The notes below the pieces were generated by a model, which had not been told where the DNA came from, made no database searches, and saw only the letters and a list, made by a program, of their open reading frames with translations. 64,000 nucleotides of DNA. Origin: Defluviitalea phaphyphila. GTDB lineage: Bacteria; Bacillota; Clostridia; Lachnospirales; Defluviitaleaceae. The stretch spans positions 126,186-190,185 of the forward strand of contig NZ_JWID01000003.1 of NCBI RefSeq assembly GCF_001466305.1. The letters are read 5' to 3'. How positions within the stretch are numbered: position 1 is the first letter of the stretch; every line of letters begins with the position of its first letter. Below, piece by piece: positions 6,602 through 20,221 of this stretch. A program made the position numbers and the translations under genes.

Positions 6602-9049
6602 TTATTTTTTCGATTTTAGTATTCCAATTACTACTCCATTTATAAATACATCAGTCTTTTTCATTTGAATAGGTTCATAGTTTTCATTTTCAGGAATTAA
6701 GAGAACGTAGTCTCCCATATTCATATATTTTTTTAAAGTAGCATTTTCATCTATAGTTACAACTACTATATCCATATTTTTAGCTGTATTTTGTTTATGA
6801 ACTACTACATAATCGCCATATTCAATGTCAGCCCCCTGCATACTATCCCCTACTACTTTTAATAAAAAACATTCATTATTTCCTTCTAACCAATCTGATG
6901 GAATTCTAAAATCTTCTCCTAATTCTTCATTAACAATTTTAGGAACTCCTGCTACAATTTCTCCATACACATTTAATTTTTCTAAATTTTCATAAATTAA
7001 TTCTTCATTTTCTCCTTCTCTATTTATAATAATATCTTCTGAATTTTCACGATCTCTTGAAAATATATATCTTTGTCTATGTTTTATATCTATATAAGTA
7101 TATGTTTCTATACTAGAAGGAAGCATTGAAGGATGAAAAGAAGGTATTTCTTCTATTTTTTCAAAATCCTTATTAATTATAACTAAATCATATCCATCTG
7201 TTACTATTCCATATTGACAGGTTTTACTTACGTTCATATAAGACTTTAGTTGACACAATGCATTTTCTATGCCTGTTTTTAATGCTTTAGTTTCTATATA
7301 AATATAAGGAATCTTTTCATTATTTTTATAAATATAAACAACTATATCTACAAATCCTACTTTAGAAAAATTGTAAACTTTTTGTTCTATATCAATTAAA
7401 CTTTTTGGATAATTATAAGTATTTATTAGTTCTGAAATTACCCACTGTCTTATTTTTTCTTCATTAGAATAAATATCTTTTATTTTATCAGAAAAATAAT
7501 AATTATGTATTTGTATAGGATAATATTTTCTCATTTTACTTTCCATACGCATTTTTAAATATCTGGGGTTTATTTCATTGATAAATTTAGATGGTTTACC
7601 ACTACTTGTTAAATACAATAATTCATTAGATCTTGTCATACCAACATATAATAATTTTCTTTCATTACTTTCTATTGCTTTTTCATCTATAAAATCTCCT
7701 TGAGTATATGACGGTATAATATCCTCATTTAAACCACAAATAAACACCACTTTAAATTCTAACCCCTTTATAGAATGCATAGTTAATAATTTAACTGCTT
7801 CATCTTCAAAATTAGGATTAGTTCTATCTATCATTTTTGATATTATATTTTTTTCATTTAAATATTCTTTAATAGTTATAAGTTGATTTCTTGTTTTTGC
7901 AATGACTGCAATATCACTTATTTTATATCCATTAGAAAATTTTTTCTTTATTTCTAAAGCTATATATTCTGCTTCATCTTTAACATTTTTAAATAGTCGA
8001 TAAACAGGATATTCTCCTTTTCTATCAATTAATGATGGTTTTACAAAATTTTCATCATCTAAAATATTCTCATCTTTTTCTAATAAACTATAAGCTGCTT
8101 CTGCTATTTGAGTAGTAGTACGATAATTTTTACTTAAAGAATTACTTTTTCCAGTCATATTAAATCCAATACTACTAAAACTTCTTCCTTTTACTAGCCA
8201 AGAATGGGGATAAATACTTTGTGCTGTGTCAGCAATAAAACAAAAACTAGAATATTCTTTTTCATTATATAATTCTTTTAAAAGTTCAATTTGAACTCTT
8301 GTTAAATCTTGGCTTTCATCTACAATAATATGAGTATATTTTTCATTTACTTTTCTTTTTGCTTCTTTTAAAGCTAAAAGTGCCATAGTTTTACCGTCAA
8401 TAAATCCTTGTTCCATTAACACTTTATCAAAAAGATTCATTAATTGAAAAATTATTCGTCTTGTATCAGAATTTTTATGTAGCCTTTGAGGCCCTTCTGA
8501 AGCACCGTTAGTCCTTCCTAATCTATCAACATTCTGATATTCTTCTAATTCCATATAATTACAAGATTTTATCCAATCAATTTCATCCAATATAAATTTC
8601 ATATTTTTTTGATCTAATATTTTAATATTTGGATTTTGTTTTTTTAACATTTCTATACATCTATTCATTGTATTGTAAATAATTTTATTATCATAAGTAA
8701 GCTCATAGGGGAAGTTAGTTCTTTTTTTATAAATTTTAAAATAACTATATAATATCTGATCTATGGTATATATTTTAACTTTGTCTTTTTTATCTATAAA
8801 TAAGTCATCAAAACTCATTTGATCTTGATCTTCAATTTTAGAATATATATATTTTATATAATTAATTAAAGTTCTATTGTATGTAACCATAAGAATTTTA
8901 TCATCTTCTCCGTAACAATAATGATTTAAAAGATGTGGTATTCTATGTACTGCTACGGTTGTTTTTCCACTTCCAGCGACTCCTTTAATTAACATGTGAC
9001 CATTTGGTTTGCTTGATACTAATCTATTTTGTTCCATATTGAGTTTCAT
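6602..9049 (-). CDS. UvrD-type helicase fused to HsdR-like nuclease and LexA-like S24 peptidase
   Basis: An 815-residue three-part protein. Residues 1-500 are a superfamily I helicase: Walker A GVAGSGKTT (23-31), Walker B VDESQD (243-248), KNYRTT (307-312), TMHSIKGLEF (423-432) and LLYVGMTRS (466-474). Residues 520-650 resemble the type I restriction HsdR N-terminal nuclease of PD-(D/E)XK fold, with candidate metal residues Glu555, Asp568 and Glu586-x-Lys588 (FVDIVV, IETKA). Residues 690-815 are a LexA/UmuD-type S24 peptidase: possible cleavage bond Ala700-Gly701 (IVAGVP), Ser736 (VGDSMQG) and Lys773 (ATLKKY). Ser-Lys spacing is 37, as in the LexA at 19613. GGGGAG precedes the ATG. It is first in an operon with the methyltransferase and PLD stump. 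The function is inferred as DNA repair or defence under control of DNA damage. Confidence 0.9.
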   Translation of the reverse strand: MKLNMEQNRLVSSKPNGHMLIKGVAGSGKTTVAVHRIPHLLNHYCYGEDDKILMVTYNRTLINYIKYIYSKIEDQDQMSFDDLFIDKKDKVKIYTIDQILYSYFKIYKKRTNFPYELTYDNKIIYNTMNRCIEMLKKQNPNIKILDQKNMKFILDEIDWIKSCNYMELEEYQNVDRLGRTNGASEGPQRLHKNSDTRRIIFQLMNLFDKVLMEQGFIDGKTMALLALKEAKRKVNEKYTHIIVDESQDLTRVQIELLKELYNEKEYSSFCFIADTAQSIYPHSWLVKGRSFSSIGFNMTGKSNSLSKNYRTTTQIAEAAYSLLEKDENILDDENFVKPSLIDRKGEYPVYRLFKNVKDEAEYIALEIKKKFSNGYKISDIAVIAKTRNQLITIKEYLNEKNIISKMIDRTNPNFEDEAVKLLTMHSIKGLEFKVVFICGLNEDIIPSYTQGDFIDEKAIESNERKLLYVGMTRSNELLYLTSSGKPSKFINEINPRYLKMRMESKMRKYYPIQIHNYYFSDKIKDIYSNEEKIRQWVISELINTYNYPKSLIDIEQKVYNFSKVGFVDIVVYIYKNNEKIPYIYIETKALKTGIENALCQLKSYMNVSKTCQYGIVTDGYDLVIINKDFEKIEEIPSFHPSMLPSSIETYTYIDIKHRQRYIFSRDRENSEDIIINREGENEELIYENLEKLNVYGEIVAGVPKIVNEELGEDFRIPSDWLEGNNECFLLKVVGDSMQGADIEYGDYVVVHKQNTAKNMDIVVVTIDENATLKKYMNMGDYVLLIPENENYEPIQMKKTDVFINGVVIGILKSKK

Positions 9050-9134
9050 TTTGTCATCTCCCCTCGAGACATTAAAGGTTATTTTTTATCATCGAATTAA
9101 GTAATATATTGTATTTTCTTGTATCTTTTATACT

Positions 9135-9163
9135 ATTATAAATTATTAGAAATGATTTTACAA
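9135..9163 (-). promoter_or_regulatory. Sigma-A promoter of the helicase cassette
   Basis: Minus strand -35 TTGTAA (9158-9163), 17-bp spacer and -10 TATAAT (9135-9140), giving a leader of roughly 80 bases before the helicase start. I found no LexA box here. Confidence 0.55.
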
Positions 9164-9215
9164 TAATATATACAAAAACCACAAATATTAGTACTAGTTT
9201 TAATATAAAATAAAA

Positions 9216-9255
9216 AGGGCTTGTATCAGCAAATTTTTGCTAACACAGTAGCCCT
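9216..9255 (-). terminator. Terminator of the cobalamin operon
   Basis: An outer AGGGCT/AGCCCT stem encloses an inner imperfect stem with GCAAA/TTTGC, followed by a U-rich tract on the minus strand. It lies just after the stop of the SLH protein. Confidence 0.7.
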
Positions 9256-9262
9256 ATTATTT

Positions 9263-12019
9263 TTATTCAACTACTAAATTATATAGGTTATATAATATTA
9301 TAGCAACTTCTGCTCTTGTTGCATTTTGATTAATAGTTTCATAATTTGAAGTATCTAATACTCCTTCTCTTTCTGCCATGGCCACACTTGATTTTGCCCA
9401 GTCAGGAATATTCTTATATTCCTCTTTAATTATTTCTTCTTCTTTTATAGGTTTATACCCTTCATTTAATAAAATATTTTCAACGATTTTTATAACTTCT
9501 TGTTTTGTTATATTCCCTTTAGGGTCGAAAGTTTTTTCATCTTTTCCGTTTATAATATCATTTTCATAAGCTAATTTTATGGTATCATAATACCATTTAT
9601 CTTCTTTTACATCTTCAAAAGGCATTTCCATATCTTTTGAAGTATATTTTAACATTCTCACTATTAAAGTGGCAACTTCTGCCCTAGTTATATTAGCATT
9701 AGGGTCAAAAGTATCTTCAGTTCTACCATTGATTATACCCTTAGATGCTAAAGCTTCTATTTTATCTTTTGCTTCTTTTACTTCATTTAGATCATTAAAA
9801 GTTTTATTGTTTTCTTTTATAAAATATTTTCCAAAGTTATTGGTTATAAATGTAATTTTTTCATCATTATCATTATAAACTCCACCCATATTTTCAATAG
9901 TACCATCATCTTTTAACTGAAAAACTGTTAAATCGTCTTTCTTATCTATATATTCATCATAATTTATACTTATAGTTATTGGATTTTTAAGATTTATAAC
10001 ATCATTTTCATCAGTTTTTATATTTAAATCGATTAAAGAAACTTCTTCGGGAATTAAAGCTTTTTCATTTTCTTTTAAATTAGAGACATCTATTTCTTCT
10101 ATATTTAAAGTTATACTTTTTTCTTTAACATCTTCTGTTAAATCTTTAGTATCTATATTAAGTATCACCTTATCTGCTTGCACTACTATTTTATCAACTT
10201 CTTTTTCAAATAATTTTTCCATTAATATTGCTGGTAATGTTACTGAATTTTGATTTTTATCAGTTTTTATTTTAAATTGGCTTTGTGCTAATTTATTCGT
10301 AGTATTAATATCACTATATTTTTCTTTTGCCTCAAGAGTAATATCTATCATATCATCTATAATTTCTTCTATTCTATCTTTATCTTCCATGTCATTTATT
10401 AATAATAAAGCATCATTTATATATGAAGAAGATATTCTTGTAAATTCTTCAAAACCTTCTTCTGTTTTTACTATATTTAATGAATCATTTATTACGTCAT
10501 TTACTTCTAAAATATAATTTTTAAAACTTTCTTTATCATTTACTATTTCATTTATTAAATCATCCAAAGAAATTAATGTTTTTTCTTCATCTTTGCTTTT
10601 TAAAATTTCCTTTATATCATCTACCATCTTCTCTGGAGAACTATTATTTATCAATCCTCCTCCACTTGCACTACTAGTATTTCTGCTATCGCTGGTATAG
10701 TCAGAAGTATAAAACCAGTGTATATAATCACCATCAGAAACCTCATAATTTGCGGCAGATACAGCTACTGTTTCCCCATTTACATTAAACATCCAACCAC
10801 TCATAGGGCCTTTATCAAACTCTGATAATCCATTTATACTTTTTACATATGCATTTCCAACAATAGTATAAGAAATCCTTCTATCACTTAATACTTTTTC
10901 TAATACATCTAATATAGTATCTCCTTCATTTACGGTTATATTAGTTTTAGAGATAATTGTCTCATCATATCCTGTTATTTTTATAGATACTGTAATTGTA
11001 CCTGTACTATTTTGTATATTATCATTATTAGAGTTATTATCGGAAGTATCATTAGATAAATCAACTATACCTCCTAATCTTAAATACCCTTCTAAAGCCT
11101 TTGTATTATTCTTTATTCCGCCATATAATCCAAAACTTCCATCTTCATTTAAAGCATTTTCTATTAAATAATCCTTAGGCCCTCTTCCATTACTTTTCCA
11201 TGAATTTAAATCTTTATCTAATAAATCTAATATATTAATTACTTCTACAGTATCTGTTAATGGATCATCCCATCCATACACAAAACTACCATCATCTTGC
11301 TGATTTGATTTTATCCATTCTAATCCCTTATCAATAGCTGTTTGTACTTCTTCTTTATTAGATACATAATCTTTTAAATAAATTAAAGAACGTATAGCTT
11401 GAGCGGTAGACATAAAATCAGGGCCCCAAGAACTTTCCCAAGTGCCTGTTTCTTGATTCTGAGTATTTAATATATATTCAACAGCTTTTTGAGTATTAAT
11501 TTGATTAATTACTCCTGCTCTTCCTAAAGCTTCAAAAGCTGGCATATCAATATAAATATTATTTGCAAAAGACCCATCATCATTTTGTTTTTCTTTTAAT
11601 AGGTCTAATAGTTCATTTGCTCTAGAATTTTCTCCTATGCTTTTCATAGCTAAATAAGAATGGCTTATGTTCTTAGCATCATAACTAGGATTTCCTAATA
11701 TTTCATCTACTAAATCAATACAATTATCTTTTAAACTCTTTCCATCATACACATATGTATCTACATCAATATCTACTTTTGCTTCATTTAACATATAAAT
11801 ATCATAAACTCCTAAATTAACATATTTTGTATCTACAGGAGTGCCTGACATAAATGCCTCTATATTATTTTTTGCTGCTTTAGTTGCTAGTTTAGACAAA
11901 ATATCTTCTTCTTGTGCTAAAACAGTATTTAAGCCTAATTGTGCTGGTAATATATTAACTAATGTCATTATAAAAATAATAGTTGCTAATATAAACTTAT
12001 TTTTTCTTATAGTTTTCAT
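9263..12019 (-). CDS. Surface-anchored intrinsic factor/transcobalamin-like protein with SLH domains
   Basis: 918 residues. A signal peptide (cleavage likely after VLA, residue 35) is followed by an alpha/alpha-toroid of prenyltransferase/squalene-cyclase repeats (about 60-320, with QNDDGSF, QDDGSF and NEDGSF repeat ends). Next come a Ser/Asn-rich linker, a DUF4430/transcobalamin C-terminal-like beta domain (about 340-441, with SGWMFNVNG and DGDYIHWFY), an unrecognised middle part (460-735), and three SLH domains (741-795, 800-855, 870-918) that would bind cell-wall polymer. The toroid plus DUF4430 order matches the alpha and beta domains of mammalian intrinsic factor and transcobalamin. It is the last gene of a cobalamin-riboswitch operon with an ECF importer, so I infer that it captures corrinoids outside the cell. 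Binding is not proven by sequence. Confidence 0.88.
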   Translation of the reverse strand: MKTIRKNKFILATIIFIMTLVNILPAQLGLNTVLAQEEDILSKLATKAAKNNIEAFMSGTPVDTKYVNLGVYDIYMLNEAKVDIDVDTYVYDGKSLKDNCIDLVDEILGNPSYDAKNISHSYLAMKSIGENSRANELLDLLKEKQNDDGSFANNIYIDMPAFEALGRAGVINQINTQKAVEYILNTQNQETGTWESSWGPDFMSTAQAIRSLIYLKDYVSNKEEVQTAIDKGLEWIKSNQQDDGSFVYGWDDPLTDTVEVINILDLLDKDLNSWKSNGRGPKDYLIENALNEDGSFGLYGGIKNNTKALEGYLRLGGIVDLSNDTSDNNSNNDNIQNSTGTITVSIKITGYDETIISKTNITVNEGDTILDVLEKVLSDRRISYTIVGNAYVKSINGLSEFDKGPMSGWMFNVNGETVAVSAANYEVSDGDYIHWFYTSDYTSDSRNTSSASGGGLINNSSPEKMVDDIKEILKSKDEEKTLISLDDLINEIVNDKESFKNYILEVNDVINDSLNIVKTEEGFEEFTRISSSYINDALLLINDMEDKDRIEEIIDDMIDITLEAKEKYSDINTTNKLAQSQFKIKTDKNQNSVTLPAILMEKLFEKEVDKIVVQADKVILNIDTKDLTEDVKEKSITLNIEEIDVSNLKENEKALIPEEVSLIDLNIKTDENDVINLKNPITISINYDEYIDKKDDLTVFQLKDDGTIENMGGVYNDNDEKITFITNNFGKYFIKENNKTFNDLNEVKEAKDKIEALASKGIINGRTEDTFDPNANITRAEVATLIVRMLKYTSKDMEMPFEDVKEDKWYYDTIKLAYENDIINGKDEKTFDPKGNITKQEVIKIVENILLNEGYKPIKEEEIIKEEYKNIPDWAKSSVAMAEREGVLDTSNYETINQNATRAEVAIILYNLYNLVVE

Positions 12020-12029
12020 CTAAATCCCC

Positions 12030-12896
12030 CTATTGTATAGTATTTAATAAGTTTTTATTTTTTTTAATAAAATTAGTAGCATTATGTAATCTAGTAAATA
12101 TTGATATTCCTCTTTCATAATCATTAATAGCAATTAATCCATGCCATGTAGATATATAATTACTTTTATTTAATGTTTTTAAATGTTTAAATCCACCATC
12201 AGGCAATTTATACTCTAATAGCTTGTCATATAAAGACTTTTCAACTTCTAATCCTAACATAGTTTTTGCCATAATATACCAAGCTACAGATTCACAGGTA
12301 CTTTTTTTATCTATATTGTTCTCAATAAAGTTTAAAGCTTTTTTTACTTCAATGGAATTTTCATCTAATCCAAGAATTTTATAAGCCACTATTGCCATAG
12401 CTGTCATATCTATATCTGAGTTATCAGAATTTACAAAAACAGCAAATCCACCATCTTCATTTTGATTTTGTTTTAACCATTTTAACGCTTTTTCTTTGTC
12501 ATAATTATCTTCTCCTGCAACATACAAAGAAATAATTCCCCATATATGAGCATTTATTAACTCATTTCCTGTTCCATCTATATTATCAGCAAACTTTCCT
12601 CTATAATTTTGCGAATTTATAACTTTTTTTATTTCCTTTGATACATCTATTCCTAATGGAAGTGCTCCTACAATATAAGCTTCATAATCGGTAGTTATTG
12701 TAGATGTTATTTTTTCTAATGTTTTGTCCTTAACATTATTAGCATTAGAATATAATGCTAATATTCCCCATTCATCTAATTCGTAATTGTTTAAAACTTC
12801 AACTGTATCTTTATTATTAGTTAAAGCAAAGGAAATATTTGTAATAAATATTGAAAATATTAATATTAAACTAGTAATTCTTTTTATTTTTTTCAT
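12030..12896 (-). CDS. Secreted alpha/alpha-toroid (prenyltransferase-repeat) protein
   Basis: A 288-residue protein with an N-terminal signal peptide (cleavage probably after SFA, near residue 24) and then helical repeats of the terpenoid-cyclase/prenyltransferase toroid type, with repeat marks such as LKQNQNEDGGFAVF and KLPDGGFKHL. It corresponds to the alpha domain alone of the intrinsic factor architecture, and lacks both DUF4430 and a wall anchor. It lies two bases after the S-component gene and ten bases before the large SLH protein. Catalysis is unlikely: no cyclase DxDD-type acid motif is evident. I infer a role in extracellular corrinoid handling, perhaps pairing with the DUF4430 lipoprotein. 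Confidence 0.8.
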   Translation of the reverse strand: MKKIKRITSLILIFSIFITNISFALTNNKDTVEVLNNYELDEWGILALYSNANNVKDKTLEKITSTITTDYEAYIVGALPLGIDVSKEIKKVINSQNYRGKFADNIDGTGNELINAHIWGIISLYVAGEDNYDKEKALKWLKQNQNEDGGFAVFVNSDNSDIDMTAMAIVAYKILGLDENSIEVKKALNFIENNIDKKSTCESVAWYIMAKTMLGLEVEKSLYDKLLEYKLPDGGFKHLKTLNKSNYISTWHGLIAINDYERGISIFTRLHNATNFIKKNKNLLNTIQ

Positions 12897-12898
12897 AT

Positions 12899-13516
12899 TT
12901 ATACCTCCTCTTCTTCTTTAATAAAATTTAATCTATATTTAAATCTTTTAAGTATAGTAATAAAATCTTTCCCAAAAAAATACATAAAACCAAAATTCCC
13001 AAGGGCATGCATCAAATCAAAATAAAATGATGTCGAATAAACAAGAATAAAACTTTTTAAAGTATGAGGATACACAAAAGTTATAAAATGCCACAAATTC
13101 ATAATATAATCAAATAAAAAGCCCCATAAAAATGCAAATATACTTAGAAAGATTCTAGAAGGATTTTTAAAAAATTTATTTAATATTCCAGCGCTTAATC
13201 CTGCTAAACCCCAACTTAACATTTGCCATGGTGTCCAAGGTCCATGTCCTAAAAATCCATTAGAGACCAAAGTAGCTATAAATCCAACCATAAATCCATA
13301 GAACGGTCCTAATACATATCCAGAAATAATAACTAGAAAAGTCGTAGGTTGAACATTTGGAATAGCACTAAAAGGAACTCTAGATACTCCTGCTAATCCT
13401 GACAAAGTGGCTAATAGGGATATTTCCTTAATAGATATTTTTCTTCTTTCATATGATACAACAATAATAATAAATAAAATTAATAAACTTAATCCTAATA
13501 TTAGACCATAATTCAC
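12899..13516 (-). CDS. ECF transporter S component, probably cobalamin (CbrT-like)
   Basis: A hydrophobic 205-residue integral membrane protein with about six segments and the ECF S-component pattern ending SRVPFSAIPNVQPTTFLV, followed by GHGPWTPWQMLSWGL, a block I associate with CbrT-like S components. The substrate-specific S subunit binds vitamin and topples in the membrane when coupled to EcfT. The start is GTG at 13514-13516, directly after the EcfA stop codon, with GGAG eight bases upstream. Its position in a cobalamin-riboswitch operon makes corrinoid the best substrate guess; queuosine-precursor or another vitamin is the alternative. Confidence 0.85.
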   Translation of the reverse strand: MNYGLILGLSLLILFIIIVVSYERRKISIKEISLLATLSGLAGVSRVPFSAIPNVQPTTFLVIISGYVLGPFYGFMVGFIATLVSNGFLGHGPWTPWQMLSWGLAGLSAGILNKFFKNPSRIFLSIFAFLWGFLFDYIMNLWHFITFVYPHTLKSFILVYSTSFYFDLMHALGNFGFMYFFGKDFITILKRFKYRLNFIKEEEEV

Positions 13517-15106
13517 CTAACTGACTCCTTTATTTATATGTAAAAAATTAATAGCGTCATCTTCAGTTAATACAAAATCATTGTATCCTCTAAATAGTTT
13601 GTTAATTTGAGTAGAATAATATATTCCTGAAGTAAGAACTTCATACTTCGAACCTATTTGAGCTATTTCTCCATTAAAAATCAATCCTACCCGATCACAA
13701 AATTTGCTAACAAATTCTACATCATGGGTCACTACTATAATGGTTGTTTCTTTTTTTCTAATATCTAATAAAATATTTCCTAAATTATCAATTAATTCTA
13801 AATTTAGCCCCCTAGTTGGTTCATCTAATATTAATATATCTGGTCTCATAACTAGTATAGAAGCTAAAGCCACTCTCTGTTTTTCTCCACTACTTAAATC
13901 TCTAGGATTTTTATTTTTATATTTATAAATATCTAATTGTTTTAATATTTCTTCTATTATTCTATCATCTTTTATACCCTTATTATCTAAAGTAAATTTT
14001 AATTCTTCATAAACAGTATCATTAAATAAATAATCATTAGGATTTTGAGATAAATATCCTATACTTCCATTAACCAAACGTTTCCCTCTAAAGTTTTTTA
14101 ATAATCCTGCAATAAGTTTTATTAATGTTGTTTTTCCACTACCATTTGCGCCCATTAATCCTAAAATTTCATTTTGATATATAGTTAAATTTATATTATT
14201 CAATACATTTTTTTTATTGTCATAAGAAAAATTTATTTTTTTTAGTTCTATTATAGGAGATAGACTATTTTCTTTTGATTTTTTCATTTTAATTTTCTTA
14301 TTAGATGTTAAAAATTGATTTTTATCTATTATATTTTTTATTAATTTTCTCCCTTCTTTTATATTAAGAGGGATGTCTTTAATATCTAATTTTGAAAAAA
14401 AATGAGAGATTGAAGGTAAAAAGTTTACTTTATATCTATAGGCCCAAGAGATAAAAGATCGTGGCTCTCCATCATATACTATTTCTCCATTTTCCATAAA
14501 TAAAATTCTATCTGCTAGATGAAAACATCTATCTATTTTTTGTTCTATTAAAAATATAGTATAACCTAATTCATCATTTAATCTTTTTAAAATAGTCATT
14601 ATTTCTGCAGAACTTGAAGGATCGAGCTGTGATGTTGGTTCATCTAAAACTAAAAAATTATTTCCTAATGCAAGCATAGCACCAATAGCAACTTTTTGTT
14701 TTTGTCCTCCTGATAATTCATAGGTATTACTTTGTTTTATATCATCTATATTTAAAAAACTTAAAGTTTCCATTACTCTTTTTTTCATATATTTTGTTTC
14801 TAGTCCTATATTTTCAAGTCCAAAAGCTAATTCTCTTTCTACTTTATCCATAACAAGTTGTCTTTCTGGATCTTGAAAAACCATTCCAACTTCTATATTG
14901 CCATATATATTTCCTTTTATTTTCCCTCCATAAAATTCTGGAACTATTTTATTAAAAATTCTTCCTAAAGTAGTTTTACCTGAACCTGAATTTCCTAACA
15001 GTAATATAAACTCACCTTCATTTATAGAAAGATTAATATTTTTTAATGCCGGATTTTTTTCTTGAGGATAATAATAAGTTAAATCTCTGATTTTAAAGAT
15101 TTCCAT
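13517..15106 (-). CDS. ecfA: ECF transporter ATPase, fused EcfA-EcfA'
   Basis: 529 residues containing two complete ABC ATPase domains in one chain, equivalent to EcfA1 plus EcfA2. The first has Walker A GNSGSGKTT (38-46), signature LSGGQKQ and Walker B LVLDEPTSQLD. The second has Walker A GANGSGKTT, signature LSSGEKQR and Walker B LILDEPTRGLN. It overlaps ecfT upstream by 28 bases and abuts the S-component GTG downstream. The protein powers the vitamin importer through EcfT coupling helices. The fused arrangement and operon position suggest a dedicated (group I) ECF transporter rather than a shared module. Confidence 0.92.
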   Translation of the reverse strand: MEIFKIRDLTYYYPQEKNPALKNINLSINEGEFILLLGNSGSGKTTLGRIFNKIVPEFYGGKIKGNIYGNIEVGMVFQDPERQLVMDKVERELAFGLENIGLETKYMKKRVMETLSFLNIDDIKQSNTYELSGGQKQKVAIGAMLALGNNFLVLDEPTSQLDPSSSAEIMTILKRLNDELGYTIFLIEQKIDRCFHLADRILFMENGEIVYDGEPRSFISWAYRYKVNFLPSISHFFSKLDIKDIPLNIKEGRKLIKNIIDKNQFLTSNKKIKMKKSKENSLSPIIELKKINFSYDNKKNVLNNINLTIYQNEILGLMGANGSGKTTLIKLIAGLLKNFRGKRLVNGSIGYLSQNPNDYLFNDTVYEELKFTLDNKGIKDDRIIEEILKQLDIYKYKNKNPRDLSSGEKQRVALASILVMRPDILILDEPTRGLNLELIDNLGNILLDIRKKETTIIVVTHDVEFVSKFCDRVGLIFNGEIAQIGSKYEVLTSGIYYSTQINKLFRGYNDFVLTEDDAINFLHINKGVS

Positions 15107-15963
15107 TTTTTATACCACCATATAAATAACAAATTCAAATATAAAATGAAATTGAAAACTAATAAAAAGATAAGCTCATGATAAGAAAAGTTTCTTAATG
15201 TAGGATAAAAATCATAATCTCCATAATTTAGCATAAAACTTATAATAAAAATTATTATTAATAATAAATTTGTCATATTAATCATATAATCAATTTTTCT
15301 AAATCTTAATATGTAATAATTAGTTCTTTTTGCTTTACCATACAATCTTGAATGAAGAGCTTCTGCTCTATCCAAAGACCCTTCTAATGAGGATATAAAT
15401 ATAATTTTTATAATAGGGTATACTGCTCTAACTTTTTTAAAAATATTTTTTTGATTAAAATTTACTCCCCTTAATACCATTACTTCTTTTATTCTTTTTA
15501 AATCAATGCTTAATTTATGAATTATATTTATTGTCATAGAAGATATAATTGTAAGTTTATTTAAATATTTAGCAAAAAAACTAAAAATATCATCTCTTTC
15601 ACTTAATAAGCTATAAAATACAAAAACAGTTGTTATACATGTTAACTTTAACCCCATATTTAATCCAAAAGCTATGGATTCTAAAGTTATTTTTATTCTC
15701 CCTAAAAATGGAACATACGAAGCTTTAAAAATTATTGTTCTACCATTTTGGGATATTAAAGGATTTAATAATATTAAAAAAATAATATTAAACTTGCTGT
15801 ATTTTAAAACTTTTATCAAAGAACTTCTTTCACCTATTATCAATGTACCTATTACTATAAATAATAATATTGAAATTATATACAAAGGATTATTATATAA
15901 CAAAGTCAAAAAAAATAATAATAAACATAATATTATAGAAGTAGCTGGATGTAATTTCAACAT
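15079..15963 (-). CDS. ecfT: ECF transporter transmembrane component EcfT
   Basis: A 294-residue membrane protein with hydrophobic segments in the N-terminal half and at the C-terminus, and a central cytoplasmic helical region bearing the two EcfT coupling motifs in variant form (KEVMVLRGVN and RAEALHSRLYGK, of the x-R-G/A type) that contact the ATPases. It connects the S component to the fused EcfA. The ATG has AGGTGAT upstream and the gene starts eight bases after the lipoprotein stop. Its 3' end overlaps ecfA by 28 bases, typical of translational coupling. Confidence 0.9.
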   Translation of the reverse strand: MLKLHPATSIILCLLLFFLTLLYNNPLYIISILLFIVIGTLIIGERSSLIKVLKYSKFNIIFLILLNPLISQNGRTIIFKASYVPFLGRIKITLESIAFGLNMGLKLTCITTVFVFYSLLSERDDIFSFFAKYLNKLTIISSMTINIIHKLSIDLKRIKEVMVLRGVNFNQKNIFKKVRAVYPIIKIIFISSLEGSLDRAEALHSRLYGKAKRTNYYILRFRKIDYMINMTNLLLIIIFIISFMLNYGDYDFYPTLRNFSYHELIFLLVFNFILYLNLLFIWWYKKWKSLKSEI

Positions 15964-15971
15964 GGTATCAC

Positions 15972-16904
15972 CTAATTATTTACAATAGGTAAATTCACAA
16001 TTTTATCTTCTGTAATCAATAAAGATGTTTTTCCTTTTATTTCTTCAGGATTTTCATTTAAAATTTTTATAGCTTTTTTTATTAAATTTTCATCATTTCC
16101 AGTAATCATCCATATAACAGATAAAGAATTATATTCTTTTTGAACACTAGAAATTATTGCTCCTTTTTCATAGGTTTCTACAGTTTTTCTATCAAAACTA
16201 TATATATTTATATTTTCTTCTATATCATAGAAAATACCAAAATTTTCTTTATTATCAAAAACATTTTTTATCATAGGAATATTCTTTATATCTTTATATT
16301 TTCCAATTATTATTGAATTTATTTCTATATTTTCAATATCATTTTTATCATAAGTATTAACTGTTATATTTTTTAATCCCTCATCTTTTAAATATTTTTT
16401 TAATTCGTCTATTTCTGATGTATAATCTCCATTTTCAATTATTTCTAAATCTAATCCACTATTAATAAAATTAATAGGATATGCCCCTATTATATTAGAA
16501 ACATAATTATCATTTCCCCAGCTATGATAATCCCATATAACCACATCTTCACTAGATAAAACATATTCATTAGCACCGATGTTTGCTAAATTTCCATTTA
16601 CATAATAAAACCAATCTAATTGTTCTTTATTTGTTTTATTAGTAAAACCTGATTCTATTCCATTAATAGAATTTACAAATCCTCCACCATAAGCTGTCTC
16701 TATTTCAAAATTTTCTTCTAAATAATCAATCACAGTATAATTTTCTTTATATTCTAGAAATTTATTGTCTATTATTTGGTTCCCAAAATTTTTGCTAATT
16801 ATAAAATTTACTTTTCCAGAACTTTTTTCATCTTTAATTTGTCCACAAGAAACTAATATTAAAAATATTAAATTAAATATTAAGACTTTTGTTATTTTTT
16901 TCAT
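15972..16904 (-). CDS. DUF4430 (transcobalamin beta-like) lipoprotein
   Basis: A 310-residue lipoprotein: MKKITK, a hydrophobic stretch and lipobox ILVSC with the acylated Cys at residue 20. A DUF4430-type domain follows (about 27-125, with TVIDYLEENF, YGGGFVNSINGI, DWFYYVNG and VIWDYHSW), then about 180 residues I do not recognise. It corresponds to the beta domain alone of the intrinsic factor family. ATG at 16902-16904 lies six bases from GGAGG (16911-16915); another ATG at 16908-16910 touches that RBS and is less likely. It is the first gene after the cobalamin riboswitch, so it probably holds corrinoid at the membrane for the ECF importer. Confidence 0.85.
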   Translation of the reverse strand: MKKITKVLIFNLIFLILVSCGQIKDEKSSGKVNFIISKNFGNQIIDNKFLEYKENYTVIDYLEENFEIETAYGGGFVNSINGIESGFTNKTNKEQLDWFYYVNGNLANIGANEYVLSSEDVVIWDYHSWGNDNYVSNIIGAYPINFINSGLDLEIIENGDYTSEIDELKKYLKDEGLKNITVNTYDKNDIENIEINSIIIGKYKDIKNIPMIKNVFDNKENFGIFYDIEENINIYSFDRKTVETYEKGAIISSVQKEYNSLSVIWMITGNDENLIKKAIKILNENPEEIKGKTSLLITEDKIVNLPIVNN

Positions 16905-16919
16905 AATCATCCTCCAAAT

Positions 16920-16952
16920 AAAAACTCTTCCTCGACTTGAGAAAGAGTTTTT
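16920..16952 (-). terminator. Riboswitch expression-platform terminator
   Basis: A stem of about 14 bp with one U-G pair and loop AAGUC ends in five U, placed just before the RBS of the first gene. Bases of its loop and upper stem (AAGUCGA) are complementary to UCGACUU at about 17032-17038 in the leader, giving a candidate antiterminator pairing. Confidence 0.7.
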
Positions 16953-16966
16953 AGACATACAAAAAT

Positions 16967-19136: not shown

Positions 19137-19454
19137 TTATTTTTCTTTATAAATGGGAATTATAATATTATCTCCTGCATAAATATCATAACTTTTCATA
19201 TTATTAAATTCTTTTATATAATTTATATATTGGTTTATACTTTGATTTTCAGGCTTGTACTCTTTTGCAATATCCCAAAGAGTATCTCCTTTTTTTATTC
19301 TAACTTGCTTATATTTTTTAATGGGATTATATGTTTGCTTTTTTTCTTCAGTAAAACTATAAGTAACAACTATAAAAAAAACTTGGAATATACATATAAA
19401 TAAAACTAACAATAAGAATAAACGGTATTTTTTAAATAATTTTTTTATTCTCAT
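19137..19454 (-). CDS. yneA: SOS cell-division suppressor, YneA-like LysM protein
   Basis: 105 residues: a basic N-terminus (MRIKKLFKKYR), one membrane segment and a C-terminal LysM domain (IKKGDTLWDIAKEY .. YAGDNIIIP) that should bind peptidoglycan. Start at 19452-19454 with GGAGGG six bases upstream; an upstream in-frame ATG lies within the operator. It is divergent from lexA with two LexA boxes in its promoter region, exactly the arrangement of B. subtilis yneA-lexA, where YneA blocks division during SOS. Sequence identity to YneA is low outside LysM, so the name rests on architecture and context. Confidence 0.82.
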   Translation of the reverse strand: MRIKKLFKKYRLFLLLVLFICIFQVFFIVVTYSFTEEKKQTYNPIKKYKQVRIKKGDTLWDIAKEYKPENQSINQYINYIKEFNNMKSYDIYAGDNIIIPIYKEK

Positions 19455-19466
19455 ATCAATCCCTCC

Positions 19467-19480
19467 GGAACATTTGTTTG
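19467..19480. promoter_or_regulatory. LexA box 1 (yneA-proximal)
   Basis: GGAACATTTGTTTG matches the Gram-positive LexA consensus GAAC-N4-GTTY. It lies downstream of the yneA -10 and abuts the RBS. Confidence 0.7.
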
Positions 19481-19485
19481 TATAT

Positions 19486-19514
19486 ATTATATGCGAACAA
19501 ATATTCTTAGTCAA
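19486..19514 (-). promoter_or_regulatory. yneA-like promoter
   Basis: -35 TTGACT (19509-19514), 17-bp spacer and -10 TATAAT (19486-19491) on the minus strand; a LexA box fills the spacer. Confidence 0.7.
19494..19507. promoter_or_regulatory. LexA box 2 (yneA spacer)
   Basis: CGAACAAATATTCT has one perfect half (CGAAC) and one weaker half. It sits between the -35 and -10 of the yneA promoter. Confidence 0.55.
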
Positions 19515-19544
19515 TATAAATTTTTTGATATTATAAGTTTATAT

Positions 19545-19558
19545 CGAACATAAGTTTG
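19545..19558. promoter_or_regulatory. LexA box 3 (lexA promoter)
   Basis: CGAACATAAGTTTG matches the B. subtilis-type consensus CGAACRNRYGTTYG at all but one position and overlaps the lexA -35, so lexA should be autoregulated. Confidence 0.85.
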
Positions 19559-19612: not shown

Positions 19613-20221
19613 ATGAAAAAAATTGGTGATAAACAACAAGAAATTTTAAATTATTTAAAAAAAGAAATTAAAGAAAAAGGATATCCACCATCCGTTAGAG
19701 AAATATGTGATGCCGTAGGGCTAAAGTCTACTTCAACAGTTCATGGTCATTTAAATCGTTTGGAAAAAAAAGGTTTAATACGTCGTGATCCTACAAAACC
19801 AAGAGCTATTGAAATACTGGATGATGGATTTTATAATATTCGTCGTGAATTAGTTAATGTTCCTATAGTAGGGAATGTAACAGCTGGGCAACCTATTTTA
19901 GCTGTTGAGAATATAGAAGATTATTTTCCTTTACCAGTTGATTATGTTAAAAATGATACTGTTTATATGTTAAATGTACAAGGAGATAGTATGATAGAAG
20001 CAGGAATTTTTGATAATGATTTAGTTTTAGTTAGAAAACAAAGTACAGCTGAAAATGGAGATATTGTAGTTGCTATGATTGAAGATTCTGCTACTATAAA
20101 AAGATTTTTTAGAGAAAAAGATCATATCCGTTTACAGCCGGAAAATTCAACAATGAATCCAATTATAGTTTCTAATGTCGATATATTAGGTAAAGTAATA
20201 GGTTTATTTAGAAAATTTTAA
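19613..20221 (+). CDS. lexA: LexA repressor
   Basis: 202 residues, full length. The N-terminal winged helix ([23 protein letters not shown]) reads the SOS box. The C-terminal S24 peptidase has the self-cleavage bond Ala91-Gly92 (NVTAGQP), Ser126 (QGDSM) and Lys163 (ATIKRF). RecA filaments trigger cleavage after DNA damage. GAGGTG precedes the ATG. It represses itself and yneA through the boxes at 19467-19558. No terminator is visible before nadE, 29 bases downstream. Confidence 0.97.

Follow-up and report, generated by a model that had tools for sequence, protein, structure and literature searches.

The window, a stretch of 64,000 nucleotides from Defluviitalea phaphyphila (contig NZ_JWID01000003.1, positions 126,186 to 190,185 of the forward strand), holds a gene (P0001; 6602..9049, minus strand) whose 815-aa product joins a UvrD helicase, an HSDR_N-type nuclease, and a LexA-type S24 self-cleaving peptidase in a single polypeptide. 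Because the S24 module is intact across relatives, this architecture suggests that infection or DNA damage may toggle the activity of the enzyme through self-cutting. The best explanation, with a probability of about 40%, is that the fusion is a mobile defence enzyme controlled post-translationally by the SOS response, with cleavage tentatively read as an off-switch.

Pfam assigns the domains in the order UvrD-helicase (residues 3-280, 9.6e-25), UvrD_C (best stretch 417-483, 1.2e-28), HSDR_N_2 (529-636, 1.9e-21), and Peptidase_S24 (694-808, 9.9e-28). The SF1A helicase core (residues 1-500; 7550..9049) has all core motifs, including Walker A GVAGSGKT (region 22-30), motif II DESQDL (244-249), KNYRTT in the motif III/IV region, HSIKGLEF, and YVGMTR, and is followed by a PD-(D/E)XK nuclease domain (residues 529-636; 7142..7465) with D568 and E586-x-K588 in place. 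A linker with a predicted beta-hairpin (residues 640-690; 6980..7132) precedes the cleavage site, and the S24 domain (residues 694-808; 6626..6970) carries the predicted scissile bond Ala700-Gly701 (6947..6952), the nucleophile Ser736 in GDSM (6842..6844), and the general base Lys773 in ATLKK (6731..6733), all on the minus strand. The spacings from Ala to Ser and from Ser to Lys are 36 and 37 residues, compared with 35 and 37 in the LexA encoded in the window (19613-20221). The genome's own LexA combines LexA_DNA_bind with S24, whereas the Pfam search found no helix-turn-helix family in the fusion, whose S24 part is therefore not a repressor. The preliminary description had claimed an intact SF1 helicase, an intact HsdR-N-like nuclease, every autocleavage element at nearly the spacings of LexA, and no repressor function, all of which stands, as do its coordinates; the strand is added here, a reading on the plus strand being ruled out by stops along the whole length of 6602-9049.

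The alignment comprises 27 full-length sequences from two phyla, 26 from sampled Bacillota genomes and one from Ilyobacter polytropus (Fusobacteriota), whose copy is annotated solely as “S24 family peptidase”. All SF1 helicase motifs and the nuclease residues D568, E586, and K588 are invariant in 27/27 sequences, as are Ser736, Lys773, and Gly701; Ala700 is kept in 26/27, with Ser-Gly in Ilyobacter. Two genomes within the same family carry orthologues that are 76% identical to the Defluviitalea protein, and even a divergent member (31% identity) retains all helicase, nuclease, and S24 residues. The preliminary description had named homologues that lose Ser736, Lys773, or the Ala-Gly bond as counter-evidence; among the 27 full-length sequences there is no such loss, the Ser-Gly of Ilyobacter being the one departure. 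Mean pairwise identity in the family is 46% for S24, 46% for the nuclease, 50% for the helicase, and 23% for the linker, which is fast-evolving but nevertheless retained beside S24 in the truncated twins described below. In most close pairs, the dN/dS of S24 is 0.035-0.06, as low as that of the helicase; judged from these alignments, the domain is under strong purifying selection. Residue conservation, low dN/dS, and the modelled fit of the C-terminal part to LexA together indicate that the autocleavage set is more than a chance resemblance.

The model of the full-length protein (pLDDT 83) is PcrA/UvrD-like, and that of residues 510-815 (pLDDT 86.5) has LexA as its best match. The closest whole-domain match that includes the cleavage strand is LexA 1jhe (TM 0.84, rmsd 2.2 A, 121 columns), a hypercleavable mutant in the cleavable conformer; the other closest whole-domain matches are structures of LexA on RecA filaments (8gms, TM 0.84; 8s7g, 0.83), and the match to several other LexA forms spans only about 85 columns. 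Because AlphaFold has seen such structures, the fold match is supporting rather than decisive. The nuclease part of the model weakly resembles the folds of Cas4 and of restriction endonucleases.

The fusion can be counted among the S24 peptidases, the SF1A helicases, and the PD-(D/E)XK proteins, but it is neither LexA nor a PcrA/UvrD equivalog, and it belongs neither to Gabija nor to Type I restriction. With the autocleaving S24 peptidases (LexA, UmuD, phage CI, HdiR) it shares the fold, the Ala-Gly bond, the Ser-Lys dyad, and their spacing, but unlike LexA it carries S24 at the C-terminal end of a helicase-nuclease, lies outside the LexA clade, and scores below the cut-off of the NCBIfam lexA model (107.1 versus 110.95 bits), which matches the S24 half only. 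All core motifs of the PcrA/UvrD/Rep helicases are present, but the score against the PcrA/UvrD equivalogs is 138 bits, with an NCBIfam cut-off of 911, and the fusion adds the nuclease and S24. The best PADLOC scores are those of C3a187 (NERD+UvrD; 2.1e-41) and GajB of Gabija (2.9e-38), which share a UvrD helicase of defence type with the fusion; its nuclease, however, is HSDR_N_2 instead of NERD, it has S24, and neither GajA (OLD ATPase-TOPRIM) nor another required partner is found among its neighbours in the window. HsdR of Type I systems likewise combines an HSDR_N-family nuclease with a DNA motor, and its damage-linked shut-off is the analogy proposed here (PMC4231737), but its motor is SF2 and follows the nuclease, whereas that of the fusion is SF1 and precedes it; control of the fusion would be built in, and no HsdM or HsdS lies beside it, the neighbours in the window being a small methyltransferase and a PLD remnant. 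SauUSI-type Type IV enzymes (PLD-DEAD) occur next to the fusion as separate proteins, which represents association, not membership. AbpAB, a defence made up of a nuclease and a helicase, responds to complexes of ssDNA and to damage of the host DNA (PMC10732053), but it consists of two proteins with different domains and lacks S24. A literature search, in which subscription journals were thinly covered, found neither an S24-helicase fusion nor a named system of this architecture, as the preliminary description had surmised.

Transcriptional control by LexA is not apparent. A GAAC-N4-GTTY operator is present within 300 bp upstream of none of the 31 fusion copies, whose upstream regions contain one weak operator-like site with one mismatch. 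By contrast, almost every lexA locus retrieved from genomes of this kind has one to six operators. This rules out LexA control of the fusion gene, and any SOS input must therefore be post-translational; an S24 domain would provide just such control at the protein level.

Self-cleavage of S24 domains is known for repressors and the polymerase subunit UmuD. RecA-linked self-cleavage of the fusion, in whichever direction it acts, is the likelier case, and cleavage that turns the enzyme off is the tentatively preferred form of it. The attack on DNA would fall to the motor of UvrD type and the nuclease of HsdR-N type. In the unstressed cell the enzyme would remain uncut and would probably form pairs via S24, as LexA does. 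Once RecA filaments form, the S24 domain would be clamped in its cleavable state and Ser736 and Lys773 would cut Ala700-Gly701, thereby parting the helicase-nuclease (residues 1-700) from the S24 tail; degradation of this fragment via ClpXP would turn the enzyme off and spare the damaged chromosome, so that the alleviation of restriction after damage would be packed into a single protein. The lean toward this direction comes from the C-terminus exposed by the predicted cut (-IVA in the Defluviitalea protein, -IAA or -VAA in 14/27 sequences), which resembles the LexA fragment ends destroyed by ClpXP, where cleavage exposes ClpX signals according to Neher 2003 as cited in PMC9578287. It is strengthened by the RecA-dependent, damage-induced alleviation of Type I restriction (EcoKI), in which ClpXP destroys HsdR (PMC4231737), a precedent for the damage-induced shut-off of a motor-nuclease. 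An -AA end also belongs to the consensus for LexA cleavage and is not proof of a degron, and an off-switch for the nuclease does not explain the truncated twins, most of which occur in housekeeping surroundings and in genomes where no full-length copy was found.

Nearly as likely, and still well short of an even chance, is the opposite direction, in which the S24 tail silences the helicase-nuclease until RecA filaments induced by phage or by damage bring about its cleavage, and the freed nuclease destroys phage or host DNA. Anatomy and conservation are equally compatible with such an activation, and UmuD, which is activated and not destroyed by the same type of cut, provides a precedent for it. 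A second precedent is AbpAB, a helicase/nuclease pair that is activated by ssDNA-protein complexes or host DNA damage (PMC10732053). By contrast, a nuclease that everyday damage to the host DNA sets free would be a hazard to the cell, and the C-termini left by the cut look like LexA-type degradation ends.

The S24 tree places LexA from the same genomes in a clade with 100/100 support that excludes the fusions, which indicates that the fusion is old and not a stray lexA fragment, and rules out a recent capture of LexA. The fused domains also occur in truncated twins of about 500 aa, which consist of motor domain 1 and S24 without motor domain 2 and nuclease, and retain the P-loop G-x4-GK[ST] and intact Ala-Gly, Ser, and Lys residues. 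They are found in seven sampled species of one genus and separately in genome G747 (L115 5898-7367, minus strand; L053 8001-9488, plus strand; L118-L124), and must have arisen at least twice, because the S24 tree forces two or more origins. Their surroundings are housekeeping genes, and no full-length fusion was found in several of the genomes that bear them.

Because the twins join S24 to a P-loop domain, as if motor domain 1 and S24 were paired, self-cleavage might respond to a trigger other than RecA, such as the DNA- or ATP-bound motor domain or a phage protein; the position of the fused S24 domains in a lineage apart from LexA is in line with this rather unlikely alternative. The fusion nevertheless has the cleavage strand, dyad, and spacing of a RecA-responsive LexA, and its model superposes on LexA equally well whether the latter is free or bound to RecA. 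An older docking study suggests that the interface residues of RecA and LexA may vary among species. Returning to RecA as the trigger, the fusion may, with some hesitation, be considered a new regulatory class, in which S24 self-cleavage would act as a fuse on an enzyme that destroys DNA, read by RecA and independent of transcription. This would amount to restriction alleviation built into the protein, and the truncated P-loop-S24 proteins would form a side branch that uses the same fuse without helicase or nuclease activity.

The distribution of the fusion is patchy. It was detected in 14/392 sampled genomes of the order and 19/399 of the phylum, counts that take in a few partial or broken copies; its frequency is thus about 4-5% of the sampled genomes, and it is missing from most near relatives. 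The gene is broken in a single species of a genus that has otherwise retained it. Two broken copies (L050 8388-10851 and L052 7989-9525, both on the minus strand) are in one case split in the nuclease domain and in the other interrupted by a stop in the helicase, which is consistent with a dispensable gene. Phages contain no full-length fusion and there is none among the IMG/VR matches listed, so that a phage origin is rejected; the only copy of plasmid type is that in Ilyobacter. The UvrD matches from Fusobacterium and an E. coli plasmid cover the helicase part only, and inspection of the Fusobacterium sequence revealed no S24 motifs.

The fusion gene is followed by a gene for a small class I SAM methyltransferase (P0003; 6010..6600, minus strand; Pfam), which starts one base past the stop of the fusion and is therefore probably part of the same operon; homologues of this gene follow SauUSI-like genes in other loci. 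The next gene (P0002; 5544..5996, minus strand) encodes a 150-aa PLD-nuclease domain. It shares 57% identity with residues 29-161 of a SauUSI-like PLD/DEAD homologue of 836 aa, and thus looks like what is left of the N-terminal part of a Type IV restriction enzyme resembling SauUSI, the remainder of which is missing here. SauUSI-like genes adjoin the fusion also in L045, L049, L058, and L067, and its neighbours elsewhere include a GmrSD enzyme (L048), a UG10 reverse transcriptase (DRT-UG10; L057), a Z1/MzaC-like gene (L060), and a SauUSI-like DEAD helicase with an REase domain (L065). In L066, the fusion lies 16 bases upstream of a NERD-HRDC gene, which is followed by ZorA, ZorB, and ZorE of a Zorya II system; the whole set (8001-14979, plus strand), that is, Zorya II with two extra genes, is probably one operon.

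Defence genes lie beside the fusion in 9/22 loci, which are not all independent because four of them come from one genus. At least 10 of the 84 neighbours within three genes of the fusion are PADLOC-type defence proteins, whereas 20 arbitrary regions of the same genomes yielded no dedicated defence gene and at most 3/84 scoring proteins, whose families (UvrD helicase, mad3) look like housekeeping cross-hits. The fusion therefore clusters with known defence genes above chance and is probably an anti-phage enzyme, as far as gene context can tell. The 13/22 loci with no recognised defence gene close by count against this assignment.

A DNA-repair enzyme whose activity S24 tunes in the SOS response is slightly less plausible still than a non-RecA trigger, although the motor is of the UvrD/PcrA type and the fusion can stand alone on chromosomes amid housekeeping genes, for example in Ilyobacter. 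A repair function is difficult to reconcile with a gene that is present in so few of the sampled genomes, is broken in one species of a genus otherwise keeping it, and is enriched beside defence systems, including the probable Zorya II operon. The preliminary description had left the choice between defence and repair open; because of the patchy distribution and the defence neighbours, the first is favoured and the second has lost ground.

That S24 is a mere dimerisation module, uncut in life, is very improbable, because dimerisation, which is common to the C-terminal domains of the LexA family, would not by itself maintain a dyad or scissile bond with invariant Ser, Lys, and Gly, Ala in 26/27 sequences, and very low dN/dS. 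The twins, in which the enzyme was lost repeatedly and S24 was kept, likewise indicate that the domain does more than hold dimers together. If the proposed control is correct, an S24 switch on a defence nuclease would couple an effector enzyme directly to the SOS signal and would illustrate how a nuclease is stopped (or started) in a cell that has suffered breaks in its own DNA. It would also offer a one-protein model for the damage-linked control of restriction. The predicted cut at Ala700-Gly701, together with Ser736 and Lys773, makes the switch directly testable.

Two other features of the window deserve mention. The lexA gene is divergent from a gene encoding a LysM protein of 125 aa (19137-19557), with LexA-box-like sites at 19468, 19495, and 19546, between the two genes or just inside, a layout that corresponds to the yneA-lexA arrangement of Bacillus. 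A gene cluster on the minus strand (9263-16958) encodes a surface protein with alpha-toroid repeats, DUF4430, and SLH domains, a second toroid protein, parts of an ECF transporter, and a DUF4430 lipoprotein; the combination of toroid and DUF4430 domains recalls animal transcobalamin and intrinsic factor, and by this analogy the cluster may be a vitamin B12 uptake system.
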